DNA of 64,000 nt, from contig JAEKLQ010000044.1 in assembly GCA_019509785.1 (NCBI GenBank), positions 1-64,000 on the forward strand. The letters run 5' to 3'. Position numbers and translations under genes: made by a program. Position 1 is the stretch's first letter. Each line of letters begins with the position of its first letter. The DNA is from Fibrobacterota bacterium. Its GTDB lineage: Bacteria > Fibrobacterota > Fibrobacteria > UBA11236. Shown one piece after another: positions 37,189-40,206 of this stretch. The notes under the pieces are model-generated. The model did not search any database and was not told where the DNA came from. It saw only the letters and a list, made by a program, of their open reading frames with translations.

Positions 37189-37292
37189 GGCAACTCCTTT
37201 GATATCGCGGTAAGGAAAAGGTAACACCGATCGGGCCGGAATTCATGCCTTTCCCGCATCGGGGAACCGGATTTCCCTCCCCTAGGAAAGAA

Positions 37293-37317
37293 AAGGCACC
37301 ATAAACCCTAGTGCCTT
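37293..37317 (-). terminator. Intrinsic terminator on the minus strand, no CDS upstream
   Basis: AAGGCAC and GTGCCTT form a perfect 7-bp stem with an 11-base loop; on the minus strand it is followed by TTCTTTCC. It faces a transcript coming from 37320-37680, where no minus-strand gene is credible, and so supports a non-coding RNA there. Confidence 0.6.
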
Positions 37318-37394
37318 CCATTGAAATCTTCTTGCCGCGCCCGATTCCGCCGTTTTTCCCACGCCCTTCCCTTCCTCTCCAAGCGGACGGGCAG

Positions 37395-37650
37395 ATGTGG
37401 GTTGCGGCGAGGCCGGAAAGGGCGGGTCCGGGTCTCCGGTTCGCCGAGTTGCAAGCGCCTCGATCCGGGGATGGGAATGGTCCGCAAAGGACGGCCAGCC
37501 CGAGGCAGCCGGCGAGAGACACACAGTTTGCTTTCCGCGGGCGTCCCCATCCCCGGATCGCGAACCGACCGCGACGCATTGACCAGCGAGCTCCGAGGCG
37601 AACCGGAGCCCCGGCCCCGCCCGGACCCACCTCAGCCGCAGCCCCGGCAT
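37395..37650 (-). ncRNA. Candidate structured non-coding RNA (long nested hairpin)
   Basis: Nested inverted arms, outside in: 37399-37412 with 37630-37644 (14 pairs, one G-T, one bulge); GGGTCCGGG 37424-37432 with 37620-37628; CTCCGGTTCGCC 37434-37445 with 37597-37608; CGATCCGGGGATGGG 37461-37475 with 37546-37560. The last three are perfect (9, 12, 15 bp). They would fold into one long rod with a central asymmetric bubble (15 and 36 nt) and a 70-nt apical part that has further stems. The topology recalls 6S RNA, but I see no sequence proof. The minus strand is chosen because a terminator follows on that side. This lies in a 489-bp stretch without a real gene. Confidence 0.55.
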
Positions 37651-37677
37651 ACCCCGATTTCTATCTTTACCCCCTCG

Positions 37678-40206
37678 ATGCAATCCCTCCCCGATCTCAA
37701 GCCTTCCGACCTGAATCCGCCCCAGCTCGAAGCCGTCACCTACGGCCCGGGGCCGCAATTGATCCTGGCCGGGGCCGGATCCGGAAAGACGCGGGTCCTG
37801 ACGTATAAGATCGCGTGGCTGATCCGCGAACGGGGCTTACGGCCCTGGGAAGTCTTGGCGGTCACCTTCACCAACAAGGCCGCGCAGGAAATGCGCCTGC
37901 GCATCGCGGGGCTGATCGGCTATGCGGGGAATCTGCGCTGGGTGGGAACCTTCCACAGCATTTGCGCGCGGCTGCTGCGTTTCCACGCCACCCGGCTCGG
38001 CTATACGGCCAACTTCTCCATCTTCGACACGGACGATCAGAAACGCTTCATCAAGGCCGTACTGAAAGCGGAAAAGCTCGAGGACGACGTGCGCTTCTCC
38101 GCGGACGCGGTGAGGCATTACATCAGCCGGAATAAGAACCAGGGAATTACGACCGATCAGGCCAAGCTGGAAGCGGAGGACACGTACGAGGAGCGCATGG
38201 CGCTGCTGTACCACAAGTACAACGAGGAGCTGATCAAGAACAACGGGATGGATTTCGACGACTTGATCTTCCTCGCCATCCGCTTGCTGGAGTCCTTTCC
38301 GGAAATCCGCGAGGTATTCAGTTCCGGCTTCCGTTACGTGCTCATCGATGAGTACCAGGATACCAACAAGGCGCAGTACAAGCTGATCCGCCTGCTGGTG
38401 GGCCCGCATCATAACCTGGTGGTGGTGGGCGACGACGATCAAAGCATCTACGGCTGGCGCGGCGCGGATATCGGCAACATCCTTAGCTTCCGGAAGGACT
38501 TTCCGGAGGCGAAGGTGACCAAGCTGGAGCAGAATTACCGCTCCTCCGCGAACATCCTGGGCGTGGCCTCTTCGGTCATCCGCAACAATAAGAACCGGAT
38601 GGACAAGACCATTTGGACCGCCAACGAGCCGGGCGAGAAGATCGGACTGTTGGAACTGGACGACGAGATCCTGGAGGCGGCCTGGGTGGCCCGCCGCATC
38701 GGCGAGCAGGACGGGGGGAACCGCTTCAAACCCGGGGATACCGCGGTTTTCTACCGTACCAATGCGCAGTCGCGCGTCCTGGAAGACGAACTGCGGAGGC
38801 AGCGCATCCCCTACCTGATCGTCGGGGGCATCCGCTTCTACGAACGCAGGGAGGTGAAGGATTTGATGGCGTACCTGCGGGTGCTTTCCAATCCGCAGGA
38901 TAGCGTCTCCCTGGCGCGCATCATCAACGTGCCCAAACGCGGCATCGGGGACAAGAGCATCCAGACGGTGGAACTGTACGCGGCGGAAACGGGCATCGGC
39001 CTGTTCGATGGCCTGCGCCGGGCCCGCTCCAGCGGCCTATCGGATGCCGCGGCCAAGCGCATCCTGGAATTCGTGGCCCTGATCGACACCTTGCGCGCGC
39101 TCGCGGCCAACGAGTCCTTGCCCACCCTCATCGCCGAAATCATCAATCGTACCGGCTTCAAATCCCATCTCGAGGAAGAGGGGACAGAAGAGGCCTTGGA
39201 TCGCCTGGCCAACGTCGAGGAACTGGTGGCGGCGGCCCAGGACTTCCTGCGGCGCCGCTCCGACAACGAACTCGAAGCCGCCCGCGACCCCGATGCGGAC
39301 GAAGCGGATCGTTTTCAACGCGCGCTGGAACTGAAATTCCCTTTGCCTTCACGCGAGGATGCGGACTCGACGACGGGCGGATCCGTCGCCGAAACCGGGG
39401 CCGATTCCGCGGCACTTGATTTCTTCGGGGACGCCCTTCCCGGAGGTAACCTACATGCTACCTCGGGCGGATCGTCGCCTGCCGGCCCGCGTACGGGCCG
39501 TCTGGAAGATCTGGAGTTGTTCCTCCAGGAAATCTCCCTGCTGGCGGATACCGATGGGCTTAAGGCTTCGCAGGAAGCGGTGACCTTGATGACGGTGCAC
39601 AGCGCCAAGGGGCTGGAATTCCCGCGCGTGTTCGTGACCGGATTGGAAGACGGCCTCTTCCCGATGCTGAGGGAAGGGGATGACGGGGACGTGGAGGAGG
39701 AGCGGCGGCTGTTCTACGTCGCCGTGACGCGGGCCCGCGAGCAATTGAACCTGACCTACGCGCGGCGCCGGCGGCGCTACGGCATGTATCAGGAGGCGGG
39801 GGGCTCCCGTTTCCTGGGCGAAATCGATCGGAACTACCTGGAAATCGCCAGGCCCCGGATGCCGCAAAGCCCTTTCGCGAAAGCGGCCGGGCGCGAGGAA
39901 CGTTCCTGGGGCGGGTTCGGGGGCGCCCGCGGCGGATCCGGGCCCTCACGCGGCTACGGGACCTCGGGCGGGCGCGGGAGCGACGATTTCGGCACCACCG
40001 CGACCCCGGACTACGAGGATTTCAGCCAAGAACACGAGGAAGGCTTCCGCAAGGGACAGCGCGTGCGCCATGAAAAGTTCGGCGACGGAACCGTAATGGC
40101 GACCGATGGGAACGGCGAATCAGCGCGGGTGCACGTCCTGTTCGCGGATCATATCCGCCGGGTGCTGATGGTGAAGTTCGCCAAATTGCGCACGCTCGAT
40201 CCCTGA
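37678..40206 (+). CDS. pcrA: UvrD/PcrA-type DNA helicase
   Basis: An 842-residue superfamily 1A helicase acting in mismatch and excision repair and in clearing stalled forks. Motifs in order: Q motif (LNPPQLEAV), I AGAGSGKT (Lys37), Ia VTFTNKAAQEM, II LIDEYQDTN, III GDDDQSIYGWRGA, IV EQNYRSS, V MTVHSAKGLEF, VI FYVAVTRARE. A Gly-rich C-terminal linker precedes the PcrA-type tail RVRHEKFGDGTV, which contacts RNA polymerase in relatives. The ATG at 37678 fits the family start; the frame is open to 37321, but that part is Arg/Pro-rich and overlaps the structured region. Two acidic insertions lie in the 2B region. Confidence 0.95.
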   Translation: MQSLPDLKPSDLNPPQLEAVTYGPGPQLILAGAGSGKTRVLTYKIAWLIRERGLRPWEVLAVTFTNKAAQEMRLRIAGLIGYAGNLRWVGTFHSICARLLRFHATRLGYTANFSIFDTDDQKRFIKAVLKAEKLEDDVRFSADAVRHYISRNKNQGITTDQAKLEAEDTYEERMALLYHKYNEELIKNNGMDFDDLIFLAIRLLESFPEIREVFSSGFRYVLIDEYQDTNKAQYKLIRLLVGPHHNLVVVGDDDQSIYGWRGADIGNILSFRKDFPEAKVTKLEQNYRSSANILGVASSVIRNNKNRMDKTIWTANEPGEKIGLLELDDEILEAAWVARRIGEQDGGNRFKPGDTAVFYRTNAQSRVLEDELRRQRIPYLIVGGIRFYERREVKDLMAYLRVLSNPQDSVSLARIINVPKRGIGDKSIQTVELYAAETGIGLFDGLRRARSSGLSDAAAKRILEFVALIDTLRALAANESLPTLIAEIINRTGFKSHLEEEGTEEALDRLANVEELVAAAQDFLRRRSDNELEAARDPDADEADRFQRALELKFPLPSREDADSTTGGSVAETGADSAALDFFGDALPGGNLHATSGGSSPAGPRTGRLEDLELFLQEISLLADTDGLKASQEAVTLMTVHSAKGLEFPRVFVTGLEDGLFPMLREGDDGDVEEERRLFYVAVTRAREQLNLTYARRRRRYGMYQEAGGSRFLGEIDRNYLEIARPRMPQSPFAKAAGREERSWGGFGGARGGSGPSRGYGTSGGRGSDDFGTTATPDYEDFSQEHEEGFRKGQRVRHEKFGDGTVMATDGNGESARVHVLFADHIRRVLMVKFAKLRTLDP

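Follow-up and report, generated by a model that had tools for sequence, protein, structure and literature searches.

A nested palindrome upstream of pcrA belongs to a genus-specific family of dispersed intergenic repeats

The window (the whole stretch of 64,000 nucleotides of a Fibrobacterota contig that was analyzed) contains a 489-bp spacer upstream of pcrA that is filled with inverted arms. The first-pass annotation had read this spacer as a candidate structured noncoding RNA, reminiscent of 6S RNA and equipped with its own terminator, and had named a DNA element such as a miniature inverted-repeat transposable element (MITE) as the alternative. The locus raises the question of whether its arms serve a transcript or the DNA itself.

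Nested arms and anatomy of the element

The nested perfect arms were recovered at the places where they had been claimed. A perfect 15-bp arm (37461-37475) pairs with 37546-37560, and a 12-bp arm sits within a 37-nt outer pair that is 81% complementary (37409-37445 with 37597-37633). The longest perfect inverted repeat of the 489-bp spacer measures 15 bp, compared to a maximum of 12 bp in first-order Markov shuffles (0/300). The nested inverted arms of the window are real and lie beyond chance. Folding, which had been proposed as a check, indicated stable structures on both strands. RNA folds of 37285-37680 reach z-scores of -3.7 (minus strand) and -5.2 (plus strand), and DNA folds of 37405-37640 reach -6.2 and -4.4, so that the scores span -3.7 to -6.2 across RNA and DNA on both strands. 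The suggested likeness to 6S RNA (RF00013), a rod with a central bubble, was not borne out, as an Rfam scan of the window at gathering and relaxed thresholds (E up to 10) returned no family match, 6S included.

In the window, the copy has the minus strand as its functional polarity. Along this strand, the element and its surroundings are organized as follows.

37409..37634, minus strand: whole element, bounded by the 5' terminal motif on one side and by the end of 3' arm pairing on the other (copy comparison by blastn and covariance models)
37619..37634, minus strand: 5' terminal motif TGAGGTGGGTCCGGGC, with family form GAGGTGGGTCTGGGC (k-mer enrichment and positions over copies)
37597..37622, minus strand: 5' arm of the outer stem P1 (arm pairing; helix 1 of the covariation count)
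37562..37596, minus strand: 5' side of the conserved internal bubble, CTCGGA.GCTCGCT...GCGGTC (alignments)
37546..37560, minus strand: 5' arm of the inner stem P2, perfect over 15 bp (helix 4 of the covariation count)
37535..37542, minus strand: 5' arm of the apical stem P3, GCCCGCGG, near-invariant in the family (helix 6, 98% paired)
37506..37534, minus strand: apical module of type A, which varies between species at the same site (alignments)
37498..37505, minus strand: 3' arm of the apical stem P3, CCTCGGGC (helix 6)
37479..37496, minus strand: side hairpin P4 (GGCCGTCC/GGACC), family consensus TTTCGAT..CCTGG..ATCGAT (folds and alignment)
37461..37475, minus strand: 3' arm of the inner stem P2 (helix 4 of the covariation count)
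37446..37458, minus strand: 3' side of the conserved internal bubble, GCGCTTGCAACTC (alignments)
37420..37445, minus strand: 3' arm of the outer stem P1 (arm pairing; helix 1 of the covariation count)
37293..37317, minus strand: terminator-like hairpin outside the element, with an equivalent beside only 2/58 copies

Across the family, the unit measures approximately 225 bp and keeps a fixed polarity and architecture, proceeding from the 5' motif GAGGTGGGTCTGGGC through the outer stem, an asymmetric bubble, and an inner stem of approximately 17 bp to the apical hairpin. The bubble carries CTCGGATGCTCGCT...GCGGTC on its 5' side and CGCTCGCAACTCG on its 3' side. The apical hairpin, GCCCGCG...CGCGGGC, combines a near-invariant stem with an exchangeable loop, and the apical modules sort into types, with the window copy belonging to the AACCAAACTGTNGGTCTCTCGCCGGCTG-like type A. 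The cores of seven copies, oriented alike, span 166 to 171 nt. A GGTCT/C sequence typically lies 20 to 25 nt ahead of the core, in the region of the 5' terminal motif, and k-mer enrichment of this motif found GGTGGGTC in 14 copies versus 0.6 in shuffles.

Copies, shared sites, and neighboring genes

A blastn search of the genome itself detected seven further copies with 70 to 77% identity over approximately 130 to 215 bp, in both orientations, together with many weaker matches. A covariance model built from seven aligned copies (R1) found at least 35 copies in this genome and at least 20 in three congeners (E <= 0.01). A second model built from 56 copies (R2) was searched against six genomes of the genus and gave at least 45 copies in the own genome and at least 20, at least 5, at least 3, at least 1, and 0 in the others; the counts of both models are lower bounds, as a limited number of candidates was scored per genome. 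No copies were found in the fifth congener (G001). Among 168 genomes of the phylum searched with the covariance model, matches occur in this genus only. In addition, blastn against plasmids and phages returned no relatives of the element, and the exact apical pattern does not occur in viral contigs. All copies examined are intergenic according to codon-based gene calls, and the few called ORFs that overlap a copy do so through over-extended starts. The window stretch is therefore one copy of a dispersed, genus-specific, intergenic repeat family, which rules out a single-copy RNA gene as its reading. Multiple genomic copies, one of the outcomes that had been named beforehand as speaking against the RNA proposal, are indeed present.

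Element positions are shared between species. Upstream of pcrA, an element pointing away from the gene is present in G000, G002, G003, and G005; G001 has a different neighbor upstream of pcrA, and the gene was not found in G004. A scan of contigs for pcrA, with relatives masked, found only distant pcrA genes. Element loci with matching flanks include PhoH/GlgB, an aldo-keto reductase, a CDP-alcohol phosphatidyltransferase, mfd, and others, and at HDOD-ftsY and pepA-guaA both copies of a pair lie at matching flanks. The T6SS vipB site holds element pairs in three genomes. Every locus detected in G002, G003, and G004, together with the majority in G005, has flanking genes in common with element loci of G000, and the orientation of the element at shared sites is likewise common between species. 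With flanking proteins approximately 75 to 90% identical, the shape and position of the element are kept and its sequence is changed, above all in the apical module, of which each species tends to have its own version. In these relatives, which are too distant for a comparison of empty sites or target-site duplications, orthologous spacers lacking the element contain other repeats or sequence that does not align.

The HDOD-ftsY spacer harbors a different long-palindrome repeat in G002 and G004 (L237 and L240; arms GCGTCCGCGCGGGCCCGAGGGGTTCC in G002) and an ordinary-looking, MITE-like insertion with ends AACAGGGTGTTGAAAAAGTCC / GGACTTTTTCAACGCCCTGTT in G003 (L238). Such spacers thus appear to attract further repeats as well, and the genus has more than one family of long palindromes.

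At 16 loci, two copies lie within approximately 1 kb of each other, and in 16/16 they face each other with their 5' ends outward, a uniformity with p = 2e-10 if orientation were random. The 5' end of the element abuts a gene: of the 24 copies with a same-strand gene upstream, 22 have its stop codon at a distance of no more than 67 nt, and 11 of no more than 10 nt, and at most other copies a divergent gene starts at the 5' end. As 5' ends abut genes and pairs face each other, a facing pair represents the two edges of one spacer. A relaxed full-model search of 30 loci with single copies revealed no convincing partners beside them.

Several other sequences were noted at individual loci. The sequence GGTCTTATGGCTG...CCGCTC..CTCGCGGGG, present both at L179 and in the stretch that separates the two copies of L144, suggests a further repeat family, and at L165 CCACGGACCTTCGGGGGTGGGTC-like units form a short tandem array in the middle of the pair. 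At L160, L165, L168, L143, L140, and L167, a conserved GTGCGCCC..GGGCGCC hairpin lies ahead of several neighbor genes, with a TTTCTATCTT-like sequence directly ahead of the start codon. In the window, TTTCTATCTT is located upstream of pcrA (37658-37668) without the hairpin.

Covariation and wobble pairs

Covariation in relatives, a test that had also been proposed, yielded a strong signal. In a MAFFT alignment of seven copies made free of structure, RNAalifold found 48 pairs, 19 of which have compensatory double changes. Among 56 copies, double changes occur in 43/47 pairs, 93.2% of cells are paired versus at most 47% in slid structures, and the covariation score is reached by 0/500 shuffles, in an alignment that was fitted to the model and hence leans toward its structure. 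The four strict orthologs upstream of pcrA show 18/42 pairs doubly changed (0/500 shuffles). An absence of covariation in relatives, the other outcome held to count against the proposal, is the opposite of what was observed. The paired changes lead almost exclusively from one Watson-Crick pair to another.

Transitions yield G-U and A-C equally from Watson-Crick pairs, so that an excess of G-U would be expected if selection acted on an RNA strand. The arms were aligned with scores that treat G-U and A-C alike. P2 contains 1011 Watson-Crick, 14 G-U, and 11 A-C pairs, and the inner part of P1 contains 6 G-U and 19 A-C, bringing the inner stems together to 20 G-U versus 30 A-C. Isolated mismatches, with three flanking pairs on each side, amount to 20 G-U and 21 A-C overall. 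As a control, 31 tRNAs of the same genome have 37 G-U versus 1 A-C in 527 pairs. Comparison of element and tRNA mismatch counts gave Fisher p values of 4e-9 and 6e-7, to be read with the kinship of the copies in mind, which makes these counts not independent events. Both sets were found by methods that favor G-U, a bias that works against the result. With G-U no commoner than A-C in the inner stems, unlike in the tRNAs, pairing of the element stems is, judging from these counts, maintained at the DNA level. The outer arms (30 to 110 nt out) contain 233 G-U versus 80 A-C, for which composition predicts approximately 1.6 to 1, and their isolated mismatches number 8 G-U and 4 A-C. This excess is only partly explained by base composition, so a single-strand contribution may exist in the outer arms.

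Readings of the family and known systems

Taken together, we consider it probable that the family consists of large, genus-specific intergenic DNA palindromes that form hairpins or cruciforms, spread anciently as non-autonomous elements, and have their arms maintained at the DNA level. The DNA element that had been offered as an alternative gains support from the dispersed multicopy family and from stems without an RNA wobble signature. Under this reading, the unit would work as folded DNA, either as a hairpin on single-stranded DNA or as a cruciform, and a putative protein would recognize its foot, bubble, and apical stem. The element may have spread in an ancestor, with copies nowadays presumably inherited mostly in place. 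Its arms would be kept complementary by selection on the DNA fold, by arm-to-arm copying via template switching, or by both; hairpin-templated copying is a published source of compensatory changes (PMC8794818).

A more far-reaching reading, which we regard as possible though rather unlikely, is that of domesticated structural DNA. Here, polar elements at fixed sites would mark intergenic edges, and the apical loop would act as a species-specific key that changes genome-wide in concert with a putative structure-reading protein.

Also unlikely are functionless old palindromes, with arms kept complementary merely by template-switch repair in replication. Hairpin-templated template switching can generate such compensatory paired changes (PMC8794818), and the double Watson-Crick changes seen here, with intermediates being scarce, are in line with this process; in addition, no phenotype is known. 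However, the conserved unpaired sequences and lengths (GCTCGCT...GGTC, CGCTCGCAACTCG, GCCCGCG/CGCGGGCTTTC) are left unexplained, as are the 5' terminal motif, the kept polarity at shared sites, and the uniform facing of pairs.

We consider it improbable that each copy is transcribed into a structured noncoding RNA, be it of a new class or 6S-like. The stable fold, the conserved bubble and apical stem, the massive covariation, and outer arms rich in G-U over A-C would suit such a family, as would the observation that one polarity scores far above the other. However, the inner stems lack the G-U preference that is clear in tRNAs, and dozens of copies are present per genome, often right behind a stop codon. 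No promoter-like motif is shared upstream of the copies, and TATCTT, considered as the element promoter, was discarded, as it lies on the opposite strand, toward the neighboring gene. The hairpin at 37293-37317 and its T-run do exist. Nevertheless, a terminator-like hairpin occurs within approximately 300 nt on the 3' side of only 2/58 copies (56/58 are without one), and the terminator of the window is hence incidental and not part of the unit. Moreover, the element differs from 6S RNA in its copy number of at least 45 in its own genome, its missing RNA-type wobble signature, and its lack of a model match. A structured RNA with its own terminator is thus not supported for this multicopy, Rfam-unmatched element. 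In 61 genomes of relatives, no 6S RNA scored above the cutoff. A subthreshold candidate of 39.8 bits, the best match, is located at G012:C53:361-539 (L009) in a distant class member; the other genomes of the 61 have no 6S match at E <= 0.001.

Least likely of all is a conventional MITE, in which a DNA transposon with terminal inverted repeats has lost internal sequence and is moved by a transposase acting in trans. Such an origin would suit the scatter of copies in either orientation, their inverted arms, the facing pairs, and copy numbers from 0 to at least 45 between congeners. Against it stand the long, asymmetric interior with its covarying stems, copies down to approximately half identical, sites common to several species, no gene found between facing copies, and no Y1/TnpB-type transposase in carriers. 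In addition, one orthologous site (L238) holds a true MITE of a different type, which looks unlike the element. Of the MITE alternative, the DNA element is supported and the textbook MITE appears unlikely, given the orthologous sites, the compensatory evolution, and neither a transposase partner nor a target-site duplication being found.

The RAYT/Y1 transposase (PF01797) is absent from all five carrier genomes, and its only matches among the six genus genomes are in G001, the genome without elements. The TnpB-type nuclease (PF07282) is absent from all six. Their absence from carriers rules out both as partners. The transposase search covered the Y1 and TnpB families. With neither such an enzyme nor a target-site duplication or empty site found, past mobility is deduced from copy number. 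An orphan IscB/TnpB omega RNA was also rejected, given the absence of PF07282 from the six genomes and no HEARO/Rfam match.

The family is best read as new, being REPIN-like in lifestyle and distinct from REPs, MITEs, 6S RNA, and omega RNA. ERIC, Correia/NEMIS, and BOX elements are foldable, imperfect intergenic palindromes of approximately 100 to 200 bp, present in several to hundreds of copies. No relation to them was seen in the Rfam scans, on which the sequence comparison relies; unlike them, the element occupies the same sites in diverged species, carries apical loops particular to each species, and covaries by Watson-Crick changes only. Integron attC sites have a folded DNA strand as the functional unit, in which some positions stay unpaired and the apical part varies. 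In contrast, the element is much longer, stands singly beside housekeeping genes, and has no cassettes, arrays, or integrase link that we could see.

REPs and REPINs are dispersed, polar extragenic palindromes that are long-lived, often lie just downstream of genes, and occur as singles and inverted pairs (PMC8049555, PMC3733652). The element resembles them in being an extragenic palindrome with polarity, found as singles and inverted pairs. However, REPs measure 20 to 40 bp, with a GTAG/CGTC tag and stems of 5 to 13 bp (PMC3733652), whereas the element has approximately 225 bp, nested stems, a bubble, an exchangeable apical module, and the terminal motif GAGGTGGGTCTGGGC. REPIN systems use RAYT (TnpAREP), and carriers of the element are without Y1 transposase. 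G-T pairs are also frequent in REPs, and the authors who described them interpreted this as pointing to a function at the RNA level (PMC3733652), in contrast to the inner stems described here, which have no G-U preference.

Strong covariation is commonly taken to demonstrate a functional RNA, and the stems of this element display one of the strongest such signals without the RNA wobble signature. The family therefore provides a natural test of how folding and arm copying at the DNA level can mimic RNA covariation, as well as a warning for noncoding RNA discovery pipelines. Its interest is greater when it is regarded as a DNA element instead of an RNA. With it, the bacterial intergenic palindromes gain a large member of complex architecture, and the conservation of its positions suggests a function for the host.
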